From a virus, in IMG/VR virus record IMGVR_UViG_3300006754_000184, positions 1 through 23,244 of that record: a stretch of DNA of 23,244 bases, one strand, 5' to 3'. The notes beneath the pieces were generated by a model, which made no database searches, had not been told where the DNA came from, and was given only the letters and a program-made list of their open reading frames with translations. The position numbers were made by a program, and so were the translations under genes. Positions 13,102 through 22,800 of the stretch are shown here, piece by piece (the stretch's first letter is position 1; each line of letters begins with the position of its first letter).

Positions 13102-13254
13102 ATGTTTTCTATGACAGAATATTTAGATGACAAAAATTATTTAGTAAATGAAAAAGGAAATTTAATTTATACACATTCTGAACCTATGGGACAGCGACCT
13201 GTATTCATTCCAAAGGATTATAGAAAATATTATGCACCTTATAAGAAAAGATAA
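13102..13254 (+). CDS. Small hypothetical protein (50 aa) before the nuclease
   Basis: The frame runs from ATG 13102 (another ATG is at 13111) to TAA at 13252-13254, overlapping the nuclease by 23 bases. The product (begins MFSMTEYLDDKNYLV) is rich in Tyr, Lys and Asp, and its C-terminal part is basic (YRKYYAPYKKR). No membrane segment is seen. A TATATT at 13091-13096 lies just upstream and could be a -10 element, which would put transcription starts at or near the first ATG. There is no good Shine-Dalgarno sequence. Codon use looks like the rest of the phage, but the gene is short and its function is unknown. Confidence 0.45.
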   Translation: MFSMTEYLDDKNYLVNEKGNLIYTHSEPMGQRPVFIPKDYRKYYAPYKKR

Positions 13255-13957
13255 ATCTTTTGAAGTTTCTGGCTTTAAAATAAATAAAAAATATCAGTAC
13301 AAATCTTATACTAGGAATGACGAAGAAACGGGACGAACCTATAATGTAGGCGATAATAAAGTTCCCTCCGTTACGACTATCTTATCAGGTACCCAGAGCC
13401 CTGAAAAAAAGAAATCTTTAGACAGGTGGCGAGAAAGAGTAGGCTACCAAGAAGCTGCACGAATCACGGCCCAGGCTTCATCACGAGGTACTGAAATGCA
13501 TTATGTATTAGAACAATATTTAAATGGCGTTGGTTATATTAACTTATCTGAAAAAGGAACACTACCTAGGATGATGGCGCATACGATAATTGATAATCTT
13601 AATCAATTTAGTCAGGTATATGGTACTGAAGTAAGTTTAAATTATGAAAATCTATGGGCTGGTTCTTCTGATCTAGTTGGTGTATATAAAGACAAGCCAA
13701 CAATTATTGATTTTAAACAATCAAATAAACCAAAACGAGAAGAGTGGATTGAAGATTATTATTATCAAATTGCGGCCTATGCATTAGCTCACAAAAAAAA
13801 CTTTGGTGATATTAAACAAGGCCTAATTTGTGTTTGTACAAAAGATTTATTGTATCAGGGTTTTTTGGTCAATGAAGAATTGTTATCAGAGTATGAAGAA
13901 AAATGGTTTAAGAGAGTTGAAAAATTTAATAAAGCTAAGCATCACAAAAAGAACTAA
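13232..13957 (+). CDS. PD-(D/E)XK nuclease of the RecB/Cas4/lambda-exonuclease group
   Basis: This 241-residue protein has the core of a RecB-like nuclease in the usual order: RGTEMH at residues 85-90, an Asp in AGSSDLVG (D147), the IIDFK catalytic strand (D160, K162), and QIAAYA (Q179, Y183), the QxxxY motif of Cas4/RecB enzymes. Metal-dependent cleavage of DNA ends is expected. In many T7-like marine phages a nuclease of this type takes the place of T7 gp6 and degrades host DNA or processes recombination ends. No Fe-S cluster Cys quartet like that of Cas4 is visible. The start at 13232 lies inside the upstream ORF. It overlaps the 5' part of the Mom/DruA-like frame, so the two are probably co-transcribed. 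Confidence 0.85.
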   Translation: MHLIRKDKSFEVSGFKINKKYQYKSYTRNDEETGRTYNVGDNKVPSVTTILSGTQSPEKKKSLDRWRERVGYQEAARITAQASSRGTEMHYVLEQYLNGVGYINLSEKGTLPRMMAHTIIDNLNQFSQVYGTEVSLNYENLWAGSSDLVGVYKDKPTIIDFKQSNKPKREEWIEDYYYQIAAYALAHKKNFGDIKQGLICVCTKDLLYQGFLVNEELLSEYEEKWFKRVEKFNKAKHHKKN

Positions 13958-14495
13958 CTCTAATCTTTTAGAGTTAATGAAGAACCATTATTCGCAACCT
14001 AAAGGATTTGTAGGGAGAAATATTTGTTATGCAATTACTTATGATGACAATTATTATGGGCATATTGTTGGTGGTTCTGCTGTTTTAGGTTTAATGCCTA
14101 GAGATGTTTTTTTTAACATAAAAGGAGCAGCAAAAAAGATGGAATTAAAAAAACTAAACACGATTGTAAATAATATATTTTATAATATATCAAAGGTTAA
14201 CAACCAATACCCATTAAGAAATTTTACAACAGAAGTCTTAAAAAAATTCACAGAAAAAATAATAGATGATTGGGAAAAAAAATATGGTGATAAGGTTATG
14301 GGTTTTGAAACTTTAGTAGAATTACCTAGAAAAGGAGAACTCTATTTAAAAAATAAATGGGTTCATGTTGGAACAACAAAAGGTTTTACTTGTAAAAGAG
14401 TTGCTGGAACAAAAGAAGAAAAATTTACAGGCAAAAGAGTTTGGGACTACAATAATCTAAGGCCTAAATTAATATTATGTAAAAAGGTCTTATAA
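13893..14495 (+). CDS. Mom/DruA (DUF4338)-like protein, possible DNA-modification enzyme
   Basis: The frame is open back to 13830. I choose ATG 13893, giving 200 residues that overlap the nuclease end by 65 bases; the start is uncertain. Conserved-looking parts in order are LLELMKNHYSQPKG (helix ending in HY), YAITYDDNYYGHIVGG, TIVNNIFYNIS, IIDDWEKKYGDKVMGFETL, LYLKNKWVHVGTTKGFTC, and KRVWDYNNLRPK. The order 'HY..., NN.., DW...YG....ETLVE, GxLY...W..vGTTKG' fits DUF4338 (DruA) proteins and Mom-type GNAT-fold proteins, in which adenine is modified in phage DNA. Which family fits best needs a profile search. A protective DNA-modification role alongside the C5 methyltransferase is inferred. Its stop codon overlaps the stop of the opposite-strand helicase. 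Confidence 0.6.
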   Translation: MKKNGLRELKNLIKLSITKRTNSNLLELMKNHYSQPKGFVGRNICYAITYDDNYYGHIVGGSAVLGLMPRDVFFNIKGAAKKMELKKLNTIVNNIFYNISKVNNQYPLRNFTTEVLKKFTEKIIDDWEKKYGDKVMGFETLVELPRKGELYLKNKWVHVGTTKGFTCKRVAGTKEEKFTGKRVWDYNNLRPKLILCKKVL

Positions 14496-15902
14496 AAATT
14501 TTAAAGCTTCTTCACCTAAAGTTTTTGCACTTAATTTAAGTTTGTTATTCAAACTTTTTAAAACAAATTCATCAATCGTCTTTTTTGCTACTAGATCAAT
14601 GTAGGTGACACTTTTTTGTTGACCAATTCTATGCGCTCTATCTTCTGATTGTTGTCTTACTTCAAGATTAAAAGAATTACTAAAATAAATCACTGTGTTT
14701 GCTGCAGTTAAATTAAGGCCGTATCCTCCTGTACTAGGGTTTCCCACAAAAAACCTAACCTTATCGTTTTTTTGAAAATTAACTACAGCAGAACTCCTAG
14801 CCTCAACTGACACAGCTCCATACACTTGTACGACAGACGTTGGACCGTATTTATTTTTTAAAGCTTCAGTTATCTCTTCTATGTTATGAACAAAATTAGC
14901 CCAAATTATGACCTTACCCTCAATTTCTTCAAGTATATTCATTAATTCAGTCAATTTAGCATTAGAAAAAATCTTGGTTTCGCCATCATCCGTTTTAATA
15001 AAACCATTACAAACTTGTTGTAATTTTATAATTTCCGTTAATTTATTGTTGTACGAAGCCATATCATCTTCAATTATAGCTCTACAATACTCTTTTAAAT
15101 CGCCATATGCTTTTTGTTGTGGTTGTGTTAAGGTAATGTCCCTTTTTTCATAAATTTTATCAGGAAGGTCTAGACATTCTTTTTTCCTTACCCTAAACGA
15201 AAAAGTTTTTATTTTCTCTTCAAGCTCATCTAAATTCTGATAATAAAGAGGTATCATTAAATTTTTATTTCCCCCAACTTGGATCTGCCTCATTACTGAA
15301 TAACGAGCTCTAAAAACATAATAATTAGTAAAACCTAAAATTGCTGGACTTAGGAACTCACATTGGCTATAAAGATCTAAAGGAGATTTAGTAATTGGAG
15401 AGCCTGTTAAAATACGTTTGTAAGTTGATTTTTGGAATAACTTGCATATATTTTTTGTTCGTTTGGCTGATCTATTCTTTATAGTAGTAGCCTCATCAAC
15501 AATTACACCTAATTTTTCATAATGTTTTTCAACAACTTTTGATAAAAGTTTTACACCAGATGAATGAGAAAATGCTTCTACATTTATTAAAAAAAAGTTT
15601 AATTTACCTTCTTTGTATTCAAATTTTTTGTTTACCTTATGAATTCCAATGGTTGTGTCAACAGAACAATGTGTGTTTATTTCATTAACCCAATTTCTAT
15701 AAACTGAATTTGGAGCCACCACAATTACTACATTAATTTCATTTTTTTGGAATAAATAAGCCATATTATCTATGGCTACTTTAGTTTTTCCAGTACCCAT
15801 CTCCATAAAATATGCAAAATTATTACGATCTGCACCTTTTATAAGAGCTTGTCTTTGGTGCTCAAAAGGCTTTGTTTTGTAGTTAAAAGAAGCTTTCGTC
15901 AT
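14490..15902 (-). CDS. SNF2/SWI2-type (SF2) DNA helicase/translocase
   Basis: This 470-residue protein has all key SF2/SNF2 motifs: HQ at 15-16, Walker A MEMGTGKT (33-40), the APNS strand (63-66), VDEATTIKN (135-143, a DEAx Walker B), TGSP near 166, and C-terminal DRAHRIGQ (421-428). DRAHRIGQ is typical of SNF2 motor proteins. Such proteins move along DNA using ATP without necessarily unwinding it. In marine phages a SNF2-like gene often lies among replication genes. This is the only confident minus-strand gene here. It converges with the Mom/DruA-like gene and is divergent from the gene at 15989. The ATG at 15902 has no nearby strong Shine-Dalgarno sequence; AGGA lies about 17 bases upstream. 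Confidence 0.88.
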   Translation of the reverse strand: MTKASFNYKTKPFEHQRQALIKGADRNNFAYFMEMGTGKTKVAIDNMAYLFQKNEINVVIVVAPNSVYRNWVNEINTHCSVDTTIGIHKVNKKFEYKEGKLNFFLINVEAFSHSSGVKLLSKVVEKHYEKLGVIVDEATTIKNRSAKRTKNICKLFQKSTYKRILTGSPITKSPLDLYSQCEFLSPAILGFTNYYVFRARYSVMRQIQVGGNKNLMIPLYYQNLDELEEKIKTFSFRVRKKECLDLPDKIYEKRDITLTQPQQKAYGDLKEYCRAIIEDDMASYNNKLTEIIKLQQVCNGFIKTDDGETKIFSNAKLTELMNILEEIEGKVIIWANFVHNIEEITEALKNKYGPTSVVQVYGAVSVEARSSAVVNFQKNDKVRFFVGNPSTGGYGLNLTAANTVIYFSNSFNLEVRQQSEDRAHRIGQQKSVTYIDLVAKKTIDEFVLKSLNNKLKLSAKTLGEEALKFL

Positions 15903-18922: not shown

Positions 18923-20480
18923 AATATTTGGTCCTCCAGGTACAGGAAAAACATATACTTTAATAGAAAGAGTCTTAAAAGGTTATCTTAATAAAGGGGT
19001 ACACCCTAAAGACATTGCTTTTATCTCATTTACAAATAAAGCCGTGAACACAGCTAGAGATAGAGCTTTAGCTAATTTTACTAAATACACAGAAGATGAT
19101 TTCGAAAGATTTAAAACGTTGCATAAATATTGTAGGAGATATTTTGAAGAAGAAGTTTTTGACCCTAAAGATTGTATGTTGGACTATGCTTTACAAGCTA
19201 AAATAATTAAAACATCTGATAAAAGACTAACGGATGATGGTTTTACTTATAAAGATTGGTCTTTAGGAATTTATGATAAGGCTAGAAATATGATGCAAGA
19301 TCCACGTTTAATTTACAAAAAGGAATCTTATAAAAAAGATAACCTTGATATTTTTTTAAGAAAAATAGACACTTATGAGCACTATAAAAAAGATTCTTTT
19401 ATTGATTTTACTGATATGATAGAAAGAGCCATTGATGAGGTTGAGTTTCCCCCACTTGAAGTCTTAATTCTTGATGAAGCTCAAGATTTTACTCCACTGC
19501 AATGGTCTGTTATTTATAAAATGACAGATAAGGTTAAAAGGGTTTATCTAGCTGGTGACGATGACCAAGGTATTTATAAATGGAATGGTGCAGACCCAAA
19601 ATATTTTACGACTTACTTTCCTGGAAGACAAGTTATACTTAGAAAAACTAGGCGTTTTGGGAAGTCTATACACCACTTTTCACAAATAATTAGAAGAGGT
19701 ATATTAGATAGTGTAGAAAAAGATTATAACCATTTAGACAAAAATGGTTTTGTAAAAAGGTATCTAAATTTTAATGAGGTTCCTTTTGGTAAACTGACGG
19801 GAACTTGGTATATTCTTGGTAGAGTGCGTTCAACTGTTAATGAATTAAGAATGTGCGCTAAGGATGCGGGACTGTATTATTCAGATAATCGTAATAATAA
19901 ATCCTTTGATCAAAAGCAATGGGATGCTATAAAATCTTGGACTAGAATAACAAAAAATAAAAAAATCACTAGGGATCAAGCAGAAAATATGTATAAATAC
20001 ATAAGAGAATTAGTTGATATGGATTTTAGAACCCCTAAATTTTGGCAAAATATTTCAGAAACTCAGTTTTTTAATTTTAAGGATTTAAAAGAATGGGCTG
20101 GTTTAGCTCTTGATGATGATCAAGAAAAACAACCTTGGTGGAAGATATTAAAAAGAAATTTCCAACCTAAACAGATAATTTATTTTATAAGATTGCTAAA
20201 AAGATATGGTCAACAAACTCTTAATCAAGACCCTCAAATTATAATTGATACAATTCATTCTGTTAAAGGCGGCGAGGCAAACAACGTTCTTATATATTCT
20301 AAAACAAATTGGCCTGCTTCTTTTACTAAGAAGAACAAAGACGAGAAATCAGATGAAAAAAGAGTTTATTATACAGGGGTTACTAGAGCAAAAGATTCTT
20401 TACATATTCTTTCAACTGATTATAAATATAATTACCCTATAGGTTCAGACTATTTGGTATATCTACAGGAGAGCAAATGA
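18870..20480 (+). CDS. UvrD/Rep-like SF1 DNA helicase
   Basis: The start at ATG 18870 is chosen because GAGGAG (18860-18865) lies four bases before it; an ATG at 18858 is in frame but less supported. The protein (536 aa) has motif I FGPPGTGKT (20-28), a FISFTNKAVNTARDRA segment (motif Ia), motif II LDEAQDF (residues 201-207), motif III GDDDQGIYKWNGA, a DTIHSVKGGEANNV motif V, and YYTGVTRAKDSL motif VI. This is the full set for an SF1A 3'-5' helicase like UvrD. It overlaps the primase by 53 bases. In a genome segment without a visible DnaB/T7 gp4-type helicase, it may be the replication or recombination helicase. That role is inferred. Confidence 0.85.
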   Translation: MINSGIQKQKNLHKKTIKIFGPPGTGKTYTLIERVLKGYLNKGVHPKDIAFISFTNKAVNTARDRALANFTKYTEDDFERFKTLHKYCRRYFEEEVFDPKDCMLDYALQAKIIKTSDKRLTDDGFTYKDWSLGIYDKARNMMQDPRLIYKKESYKKDNLDIFLRKIDTYEHYKKDSFIDFTDMIERAIDEVEFPPLEVLILDEAQDFTPLQWSVIYKMTDKVKRVYLAGDDDQGIYKWNGADPKYFTTYFPGRQVILRKTRRFGKSIHHFSQIIRRGILDSVEKDYNHLDKNGFVKRYLNFNEVPFGKLTGTWYILGRVRSTVNELRMCAKDAGLYYSDNRNNKSFDQKQWDAIKSWTRITKNKKITRDQAENMYKYIRELVDMDFRTPKFWQNISETQFFNFKDLKEWAGLALDDDQEKQPWWKILKRNFQPKQIIYFIRLLKRYGQQTLNQDPQIIIDTIHSVKGGEANNVLIYSKTNWPASFTKKNKDEKSDEKRVYYTGVTRAKDSLHILSTDYKYNYPIGSDYLVYLQESK

Positions 20481-20980
20481 GTCCTTATTTTGAAGATTTA
20501 AAACTACACCCTTATCACGATGGTGCCGTATATAATAAAATATGGGATCCAGAAACGAAATGGGTTGAATATTTTAATTTTACTGCTTGCTTAATTGATA
20601 ATGATATTATGATGAAAGATCATTTTTATAAGTGGTTATATGAAAGACATCCCTTTAAAACCGGAGTTTTAAAAATGGAACATAAGACAATGTACAATTG
20701 GCATGCAGATTCTACAAGAGGTGTATGTATTAATAGTATAATCCAAACACCCAATACTTCTTTTACTTTCTTTAGAGGGGCAAAAGAGGTTAATCACGGT
20801 TTAATTGAATTACAGTATTATCCAGGCGCTAGGTTTTTATTTAACAATCAAAAAGAACATATGGTTTTGAATTATGATGGTGATAGGTATGTTTTGACCA
20901 CTGAATTCTTAGAAGATAAAGATGAATTGACTTACATAGATTTACTAAAAGAGATTGAAAATGACTATTACAAAAAATAA
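20477..20980 (+). CDS. 2OG-Fe(II) oxygenase-like protein
   Basis: This 167-residue protein shows the iron-binding triad pattern of 2-oxoglutarate oxygenases: NWHAD (H76, D78) and EHMVLN (H128), followed by R137 nine residues later, the usual position for 2-oxoglutarate binding. A PGARFLFNNQ strand precedes the distal His. Such enzymes hydroxylate or otherwise modify proteins or bases, and they are common in marine phages, where the substrate is usually unknown. AGGAG near 20468 gives a good ribosome-binding site, and the ATG overlaps the helicase stop as ATGA. It ends within the DUF3310 gene start. Possible links to DNA modification with the nearby methyltransferase are speculative. Confidence 0.6.
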   Translation: MSPYFEDLKLHPYHDGAVYNKIWDPETKWVEYFNFTACLIDNDIMMKDHFYKWLYERHPFKTGVLKMEHKTMYNWHADSTRGVCINSIIQTPNTSFTFFRGAKEVNHGLIELQYYPGARFLFNNQKEHMVLNYDGDRYVLTTEFLEDKDELTYIDLLKEIENDYYKK

Positions 20981-21188
20981 AGAATCTGATTTATGGAATA
21001 AAGGTGGTCAATATTATAGAAATTTTAAAATACAACCTTCTCAGTTTATTAATGAAAATAAAATTCTTTTTGCTGAAGGTAATGTAATAAAATATATATG
21101 TAGGCATCAAGGGAAAGGTGGTAAACAGGATTTAGAAAAAGCTAAACATTATATAGAAATGATAATAGATAGAGATTATGGCGCTTAG
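20961..21188 (+). CDS. DUF3310 small protein
   Basis: The start at ATG 20961 is preferred over TTG 20955 because AAGAGA lies a few bases upstream. The 75-residue product contains QPSQFINENKILFAEGN, VIKYICRHQGKGGKQDLEKA and HYIEMIIDRDYG. These match the DUF3310 pattern 'QP.EFI....L.F.EGNVIKYi.RH..K.G..DL.KA.HYLE', a small phage family of unknown function. It is a compact helical protein found in many phages near replication or nucleotide-metabolism genes. It overlaps the oxygenase-like gene by 20 bases and the methyltransferase by 11 bases, so the three are in one translational run. Confidence 0.8.
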   Translation: MTITKNKESDLWNKGGQYYRNFKIQPSQFINENKILFAEGNVIKYICRHQGKGGKQDLEKAKHYIEMIIDRDYGA

Positions 21189-22800
21189 TGTATTGGATCT
21201 ATTTTCTGGTATTGGTGGTTTTAGTTATGCCTTTGAATCTACTGGTCATTTTGAAACAGTTGCTTTTTGTGAAAATAATAAGTTTTGTCAAAAAGTTTTG
21301 AAAAAAAACTTTCCAAATGTTAAAATATATGAAGATGTAAGGAGTATAAATGGAAAAGAAATTAAAGCAGATGTCGTTGCTGGAGGATTCCCTTGTCAAA
21401 GTTTCTCCGTTGCAGGAAAAAGAAGAGGCACAGGAGATGATCGCTATCTCTGGCCAGAAATGTTTCGAGTTATTACCGAAGTCAAACCAAGCTGGGTGGT
21501 TTGGGAGAATGTGCAAGGAATTATTAACATCGAAAACGGCTTGGTACTCCGACAGGTGCAAGATGACTTGGAAAAAGAAGGTTTCCAAAGCAGATGTTTT
21601 GTTATTCCAGCTAGCGGTGTCGGTGCATGGCACCAAAGAAAAAGGATCTGGGGAATCGCTTTCAACGAAAACAACTGGTTTGATACATACCCCAACAGCA
21701 AAGGCAAATCAAGTATCTCCAAGTATGGTGAATCGGGACAAAGGGAGTTGGGGGAATCACATGTATGCGACTCCCAACACAATGGACCATCTACCACCCA
21801 GGAGCAAAGAGGGAACACTCAAACTGCAACAGGGTCACAGGAAGGGAAGAACTCTTCCACCCAATCTAAGAGAACAAGTAGATCCACAGACAATGGCAAT
21901 GTATCCAACTCCCAATGCTTGGGATGGAATGAGAGGACCAAGATCGGAGAAACACATCAGGGAAAACCCAAACAGTCAGATAACTCTAGTGACAAAAGTA
22001 GCCCAAATAGAGAGAAAGAAGATGTATCCAACTCCCAACACCAACGATGGAGCGACCAATCCGGCAGAGGACATAGAGAATTGGGAGAAAAGAGCAGAGA
22101 AAAAGAAAAAAGAGGGGATCAATCTGCATTATGCTCTTCGACACGCAGTGCAGAAAGAGGAACAGATGAAGATGTATCCAACTCCCAGAACAGGAGCAGG
22201 GAGCAGACCCAATGGCAAGGGAGGGAAAGTATTGGAAGAGGAAGTGATGATAGAAGCAGGCTTGAGAGAGAGGGGAAAAACATTGAAACAGATGTATCCA
22301 ACTCCAGTAGCGAAGGACAATTGTTCAGAGAGTCTGGAAAGTTGGGAGAAGAGAGCAGAGAAACACAAGGAGCAAGGGAAAACGATACCCAAAGCTCTCA
22401 GAATAAAAGTGCAGGAGGAAGCCAAGATGTACCCAACACCCACGACTCAGGACTCACGGATCGGTCCAAACAACATCAAGGGGAGCGAACACCGAAAGAA
22501 AAGAGGGAGTCCAGCACTAGCCGATTCAATTCTGTTTCCAACTCCAACGGCAAGGGATTACAAAGATATGGGGTACAAACCCAGCTGGAAACCAAGTCGG
22601 GACAAGAGTCTTCCAAGAGAGGTGCTGAAGAGCAACACACATGGTGGGAGGCTAAACGTGAATTTTGTGGAGTTCCTAATGGGGTTTCCTACGAATTACA
22701 GCGAGATAGAGTCAGTAGAATAAAAGCATTAGGTAATTCAATAGTTCCTCAAATCGTCTTTCAAATAGCTCAAGCAATAATAAAAAGTAAAAATGACTAG
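21178..22800 (+). CDS. C5 cytosine DNA methyltransferase with an unusually long low-complexity recognition region
   Basis: This 540-residue protein has the C5-MTase motifs in order: motif I LDLFSGIGGFSYAFE (6-20), motif IV GGFPCQSFSVAGKRRG with catalytic C73, motif VI ENV (110-112), motif VIII HQRKRIWGIA (152-161), and motif X RIKALGNSIVPQI near the C terminus. It should transfer a methyl group from SAM to cytosine C5. The stretch between motif VIII and motif X (about 345 residues), where the target recognition domain sits, is Ser/Gln/Arg/Glu/Lys-rich and holds DVSNSQ-type repeats. It is far longer than usual. The reason is visible: the same DNA encodes a nested protein in the +1 frame (21350-22723). 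The start overlaps the DUF3310 gene. Protection from host restriction is the likely role. Confidence 0.85.
   Translation: MALSVLDLFSGIGGFSYAFESTGHFETVAFCENNKFCQKVLKKNFPNVKIYEDVRSINGKEIKADVVAGGFPCQSFSVAGKRRGTGDDRYLWPEMFRVITEVKPSWVVWENVQGIINIENGLVLRQVQDDLEKEGFQSRCFVIPASGVGAWHQRKRIWGIAFNENNWFDTYPNSKGKSSISKYGESGQRELGESHVCDSQHNGPSTTQEQRGNTQTATGSQEGKNSSTQSKRTSRSTDNGNVSNSQCLGWNERTKIGETHQGKPKQSDNSSDKSSPNREKEDVSNSQHQRWSDQSGRGHRELGEKSREKEKRGDQSALCSSTRSAERGTDEDVSNSQNRSREQTQWQGRESIGRGSDDRSRLEREGKNIETDVSNSSSEGQLFRESGKLGEESRETQGARENDTQSSQNKSAGGSQDVPNTHDSGLTDRSKQHQGERTPKEKRESSTSRFNSVSNSNGKGLQRYGVQTQLETKSGQESSKRGAEEQHTWWEAKREFCGVPNGVSYELQRDRVSRIKALGNSIVPQIVFQIAQAIIKSKND
21338..21344 (+). promoter_or_regulatory. 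Strong Shine-Dalgarno sequence of the nested +1-frame gene
   Basis: TAAGGAG lies inside the methyltransferase coding sequence, five bases before ATG 21350, the first codon of the nested frame. It is one of the best ribosome-binding sites in the window and decides the nested start. Confidence 0.7.
21350..22723 (+). CDS. Nested +1-frame protein with (Y/F)PTP repeats inside the C5 methyltransferase gene
   Basis: A 457-codon frame lies wholly within the methyltransferase gene, shifted by one base, with TAAGGAG five bases before its ATG. The N-terminal part reads over the methyltransferase catalytic region and contains ISGQKCFELLPKSNQAGW and CKMTWKKKVSKADVLLFQL. From about residue 113 there are eight copies of an (H/Y/F)xTP(N/T/R/V/A) motif at about 26-50 residue spacing, usually MYPTPxxxD. 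Two units share WEKRAEK and ALRxxVQ. The C terminus has GGRLNVNFVEFLMGFP. From memory, proteins ending 'LNP.FVEWLMGFP.GW' are annotated near or as phage C5 methyltransferases. Codon differences between repeat units favour this frame. The role is unknown; a methyltransferase partner is a guess. Confidence 0.65.
   Translation: MEKKLKQMSLLEDSLVKVSPLQEKEEAQEMIAISGQKCFELLPKSNQAGWFGRMCKELLTSKTAWYSDRCKMTWKKKVSKADVLLFQLAVSVHGTKEKGSGESLSTKTTGLIHTPTAKANQVSPSMVNRDKGSWGNHMYATPNTMDHLPPRSKEGTLKLQQGHRKGRTLPPNLREQVDPQTMAMYPTPNAWDGMRGPRSEKHIRENPNSQITLVTKVAQIERKKMYPTPNTNDGATNPAEDIENWEKRAEKKKKEGINLHYALRHAVQKEEQMKMYPTPRTGAGSRPNGKGGKVLEEEVMIEAGLRERGKTLKQMYPTPVAKDNCSESLESWEKRAEKHKEQGKTIPKALRIKVQEEAKMYPTPTTQDSRIGPNNIKGSEHRKKRGSPALADSILFPTPTARDYKDMGYKPSWKPSRDKSLPREVLKSNTHGGRLNVNFVEFLMGFPTNYSEIESVE
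21686..22546 (+). repeat. Dispersed 15-bp DNA repeat read in two frames
   Basis: A core close to ATGTATCCAACTCCC occurs at 21761, 21899, 22022, 22172, 22292, 22427 and 22532, with a weaker copy (CATACCCCAACAGCA) at 21686. Distances between the seven strong copies are 138, 123, 150, 120, 135 and 105 bases, all multiples of three. In the methyltransferase frame the repeat reads (D/N)VSNS; in the nested frame it reads MYPTP. A longer repeat around TTGGGAGAAAAGAGCAGAGA occurs at 22081 and 22342. Confidence 0.8.

Follow-up and report, generated by a model that had tools for sequence, protein, structure and literature searches.

The gene at positions 13977–14495 (+ strand) of the window, by which we mean the whole stretch of 23,244 nucleotides analysed here (IMG/VR virus record IMGVR_UViG_3300006754_000184), encodes a 172-residue protein of the Mom/DUF4338 type with a predicted GNAT fold. 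Its family is a compact clade, sister to DUF4338 within an atypical GNAT superfamily that holds both the cellular DUF4338/"DruA" proteins and Mom of phage Mu, and the gene itself, flanked by an exonuclease gene and a helicase gene, occupies a swap site as optional cargo. The likeliest function, by our analysis, is that the protein modifies the DNA of its own phage with an acyl-type group and so protects it from restriction, a proposal that we hold with about even confidence. We found no earlier description of the compact clade with its altered motif positions, of its placement between DUF4338 and Mom, or of the swap site.

The gene and its relatives

The blocks HYSQPKG, NNIFYNI, DWEKKYG, ETLVE and VGTTKG, on which a sequence-only reading had based its Mom/DruA-like assignment, are all present in that order and in a single frame. 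In an alignment of 30 family members, these blocks fall on columns that are invariant or nearly so and are thus not a product of chance. The start proposed in that reading, 13893, has been replaced by 13977, because the in-frame ATG at that position falls within the exonuclease gene upstream and because the methionine preceding xxHYS (ATG 13977) is the start in 30/30 aligned relatives. As judged from the sequences, the 172-residue gene product is a real, conserved protein; it is also basic, with a pI of 9.7, compared with a median of 9.6 for the family and 9.9 for Mu Mom.

Forty loci in viral contigs were found to encode the GNAT-fold protein or a relative, most of them at 45–68% identity, and two further relatives come from short contigs in genome assemblies, one from a Methanoregulaceae archaeon and one from a Lachnospiraceae bacterium. 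The nearest relatives (the L002 group, 68%) belong to other phages, where they adjoin a DNA polymerase A gene. Members are very rare in named phages, since a tblastn search of 50,697 phage records returned a single doubtful match (26% identity, E 0.1). A PDB sequence search with the window protein alone as the query gave no match, and searches of NCBIfam and PADLOC gave chance-level matches only.

Placement among DUF4338, Mom and DruA

Profile searches placed the family closest to DUF4338. The window protein scored 24.9 bits (1.4e-5) against the Pfam DruA profile (PF14236, formerly DUF4338), just under the curated cut-off of 27, while family copies in other records exceed that cut-off; altogether, 18 of the 30 members matched PF14236 (best, 3.4e-7). 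Conversely, a search with the family HMM picked up cellular DUF4338 proteins with up to 63.7 bits. For Mom, the window protein had no match to the Pfam profile (PF25680), which was weakly matched by three of 30 relatives (best E 0.0024); three of the 30 members also matched PHROG 1384 (phrog_1384), annotated as 'Mom-like DNA modification protein' (best, 2.1e-6), and the Mom HMM picked up the relative L036 (28.7 bits, E 4.9e-6). Profile–profile comparison by hhalign, with E-values that hold for single comparisons, joined the family to DUF4338 at 99.1% (E 1.7e-18), DUF4338 to Mom at 93.6% (E 2e-7), and the family to Mom at 75.9% (E 2.3e-5). In a maximum-likelihood tree with a midpoint root, the family formed its own clade, with DUF4338 neighbouring and Mom apart (SH-aLRT 96–98; 98 for the separation from cellular DUF4338).

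The same comparisons bear on the idea that the gene encodes a Druantia DruA, an identity that we reject on length, motifs and context. Full-length DruA-type proteins, including one from Synechococcus phage S-PRM1 (PMC12774648), share the broad superfamily, both groups matching PF14236, but they are over twice as long (about 380–400 residues against 172), and the HYS and ETLVE blocks are absent from them in the alignment. The family profile is far nearer to the shorter DUF4338 proteins than to the full-length DruA type (71.7%, E 3.5e-5), and the family HMM found no DruA-type protein below E 4. The gene's neighbours are the phage exonuclease and, in convergent orientation, an SNF2 helicase; none of the Druantia operon partners, including the YprA-type helicase, is among them, and both neighbours are also present in sister phages that lack the GNAT gene. 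The exclusion draws on context and on few sequences, because the DruA-type set comprised three proteins, picked by Pfam score and length and not by Druantia context. DruA-like folds have been published for Synechococcus phages (PMC12774648), and the occurrence of DruA-like proteins in phages is therefore not in itself a novelty. A related proposal, that the protein is a mimic that takes the place of DruA in its complex and thereby blocks Druantia or another host defence, would suit a protein that is related to a defence family and carried by a phage as optional cargo; we consider it highly improbable, given the remote similarity to full-length DruA-type proteins, the lack of a notable PADLOC match, and no sign that the hosts hold Druantia.

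Structural comparison of predicted models agreed with the profile-based placement. AlphaFold2 predicts GNAT topology for the window protein (pLDDT 83.6), with low confidence in the N-terminal HYS segment, and nearly all Foldseek matches in the PDB were N-acetyltransferases (best E 2.1e-4). In a fold comparison by VIA-align, in which the window model reached Z values of up to 11.7, the Mu Mom structure (8bv8) came second, level with other GNATs, at Z 11.0 and rmsd 3.6 over 133 residues, more than were aligned for most other chains. For the model of L036, a relative that is one of those nearest to Mom by score, Mom ranked first (Z 12.3, rmsd 3.6, 140 residues, 15% identity), formally tied because the next chain lay less than 1 Z unit below. 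As unrelated GNATs scored within 1 Z unit of Mom, the models by themselves point to a GNAT fold, and the link to Mom, weaker by sequence and supported by fold, rests on both together. Membership of the DUF4338/Mom-type superfamily, as first proposed from motifs, is therefore borne out by the profiles and by two predicted models with Mom as their first or second fold match.

The cellular DUF4338 proteins (PF14236; e.g. L069–L071) share with the family a common motif order: HY, GxxxxY, R, NNxxF, NFTT or HLAS, DWxxxY, ETxVE/D, GxxY...W and (V/L)GxTxG. Unlike these proteins, the window protein, at its 172 residues, lacks an N-terminal part of at least 100 residues, and the family carries an additional conserved C-terminal TCKR...GKRVW...LxPK. 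With Mu Mom (PF25680; PDB 8bv8) the family shares the GNAT fold (Z 11.0–12.3), the HYS and GxxY...G blocks, the basic character and carriage by phages, whereas identity in the structural alignments is only 8–15% and Mom lies in a separate clade. Through these motifs and the fold, the DUF4338 domains themselves become tied to Mom.

Residue equivalences were taken from motif alignment at low identity, with Mom numbered as in P0001 and the offset to the literature inferred. The HYS of the family corresponds to the HYS of Mom and to the HYLG-like blocks of DUF4338. The (S/T)xxE pair of the family, T/S112-x-x-E115, aligns with the SxxD pair of Mom (S136-x-x-D139) and with ETFVE/D of DUF4338, and its GxxY...W...G block (Y123...W128...G132) aligns with GxxY...F...G of Mom (Y149...F...G158). 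Presumably, D139 is the D149 of the literature, and Ser114 of P0001, facing T85 in the window protein, is what we take to be the literature's Ser124, a number that also stands in the PDB title. By this alignment, two active-site positions of Mom differ: the Ser124 position is variable across the family (T/Q/S/A/P/V), and Phe68 is found in 30/30 members where Mom (R101, the ELNR arginine) and DUF4338 (NNxRFL, as against NNIFY here) have a conserved arginine. The residues HYS, E111, E115, R118, Y123, C139 and R141 are invariant in the 30 members.

The altered positions leave room for a protein that is non-catalytic or acts otherwise, its GNAT fold retained for binding to DNA, or to modified bases, during replication or recombination; DUF4338 proteins of mobile elements may be a parallel case. 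Loss of the arginine shared by Mom and DUF4338 and variability at the Ser124 position would fit such a binder, as would the basic charge and the setting, with an exonuclease adjoining the gene here and DNA polymerase A or primase–helicase genes adjoining its relatives. The set of invariant residues exceeds what is usual for binding alone, and we judge this reading unlikely.

Two observations concern the cellular DUF4338 proteins. In L075, a DUF4338 frame is broken by internal stops and passes into what looks by eye like transposase sequence; in genome G087, six DUF4338 matches were found. From these two cases, DUF4338 may travel with transposons.

The exonuclease–helicase junction

Best protein matches and gene order identify the window as an HTVC023P-type pelagiphage, in keeping with the phage setting read from the sequence at the outset. 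Pelagibacter phage HTVC023P gave the best match among named phages for two window proteins (64% and 54%), and the genes downstream follow its order. The left neighbour, proposed earlier to be a nuclease, is confirmed as a PD-(D/E)XK exonuclease (13232–13957, + strand; PDDEXK_1 5.8e-5; phrog_298 9.6e-49), an orthologue of HTVC023P gp85. On the right, and convergent, lies an SNF2-type helicase (14490–15902, − strand; SNF2-rel_dom 3.8e-25; phrog_62 6.3e-124), the orthologue of gp86. In HTVC023P, the two genes overlap with nothing between them.

Across 80 syntenic contigs, the site between these borders is empty in most, and the GNAT gene occurs in just one (L001), which is nearly identical to the window. 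Elsewhere the contents differ: a DNA methyltransferase occupies the site in L147 and L149 (phrog_11619 5.6e-31), an AdoMet decarboxylase in L152 (Pfam 3.8e-16), and an ORF resembling a metalloprotease (HExxH seen by eye, without a family match) in L165. In some sister phages, site gaps of 99–380 bp contained no gene or short ORFs without assignment, and alignment of the junction DNA was uninformative past the exonuclease end. Since one contig in 80 has the gene and the contents vary among the others, the gene is optional cargo, and HTVC023P-type phages swap cargo at the exonuclease–helicase junction (13957–14490). The junction is thereby marked as a place where genes including DNA methyltransferases are exchanged in phages that infect one of the most abundant groups of marine bacteria. 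As a separate observation, the site in L156 holds an AdoMet decarboxylase look-alike.

The exchange of this cargo with a DNA methyltransferase at one site bears on a further alternative, in which the GNAT protein acylates a host protein, such as RNA polymerase or a ribosomal or defence protein, for cell takeover, and DNA is not its substrate. The fold searches returned protein and small-molecule acetyltransferases at scores near that of Mom, DUF4338 has been read as a GNAT in DndF with protein targets suggested for these domains (PMC10853773), and RNA polymerase is a target of other phage GNATs (PMC7824862). Against a protein target speak the shared site, neighbours that are genes of DNA metabolism, and a sequence likeness that is specific to DUF4338 and Mom and not to the protein-acetylating GNAT families. 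We regard host-protein acylation as rather doubtful.

Candidate function and methyltransferase genes

Modification of the phage's own DNA is the reading that we prefer, because of the superfamily, the charge of the protein, the interchangeable nature of the cargo and the neighbouring genes. In the mechanism that we propose, the GNAT protein would act on phage DNA during infection and would catalyse the transfer of a small acyl or carbamoyl-type group from a donor to the exocyclic amine of a target base, upon which host restriction enzymes would cease to cut. Mom has been described as a GNAT whose modification falls on the N6 of adenine (PMC7824862), and gene partners or pairs have been proposed for thymidine hypermodification in HTVC023P-type phages (PMC9599517). 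In the literature that we searched, we found no experiment tying a DUF4338 protein to DNA modification and no DUF4338 chemistry beyond the GNAT assignment. The DNA-modification or counter-defence role suggested by the sequence-only reading thus stands as plausible and fits the superfamily, whereas the variable Ser124 position and the change of arginine to phenylalanine leave the role itself a matter of inference. In a tentative extension of this proposal, the family could be a third, compact branch of the Mom/DUF4338 superfamily in marine and other phages, lacking a PHROG of its own, that modifies DNA bases by a non-Mom chemistry, as the changed Arg and Ser positions may suggest, and that trades places with DNA methyltransferases at a site for anti-restriction cargo. 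As a small single-domain protein, the gene product could serve as a test case for the DUF4338 domains, which occur in bacterial defence loci.

The window also encodes a C5 cytosine DNA methyltransferase (21178–22800, + strand; DNA_methylase 2.9e-48), with which the GNAT protein had been suggested to form a second layer of modification. A fixed partnership of the two was rejected: the syntenic phages L140 and L141 carry a 77% identical C5 methyltransferase and lack the GNAT gene, and among the relatives' records, many of which are fragments, a C5 methyltransferase was found in three of 19. N6/N4 methyltransferases were more frequent (11 of 20 records of relatives), and their genes lie directly downstream of family members in L010 (6537–7964) and L025 (6495–7403). 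Of nine records having DNA methyltransferase genes, six had at least one within 5 kb of the family member (2.2 expected under uniform placement; p about 0.006), a proximity that is suggestive only because the 5 kb limit was picked after the distances were known. By eye, the L010 enzyme appears to have a ParB-like N-terminal part.

Inside the C5 methyltransferase gene, which has VSNS repeats, a second frame with MYPTP repeats stays open for 457 codons (21350–22723, + strand) and matches phrog_1008 (9.3e-31). Protein matches to this frame were found in L140, L141, L153, L154, L156, L157 and L164 at 27–47% identity, a similarity part of which can be carried by conservation of the methyltransferase alone. 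When codons were shuffled such that the methyltransferase protein was kept, the second frame never stayed open for as long in 2000 shuffles (383 at most), and the two frames may form a dual-coding pair. Further upstream, an ORF of 167 residues (20477–20980, + strand), without a match in Pfam or PHROG, contains WHAD...EHMVLN, which by eye resembles the HxD...H motif of 2OG-Fe(II) oxygenases.
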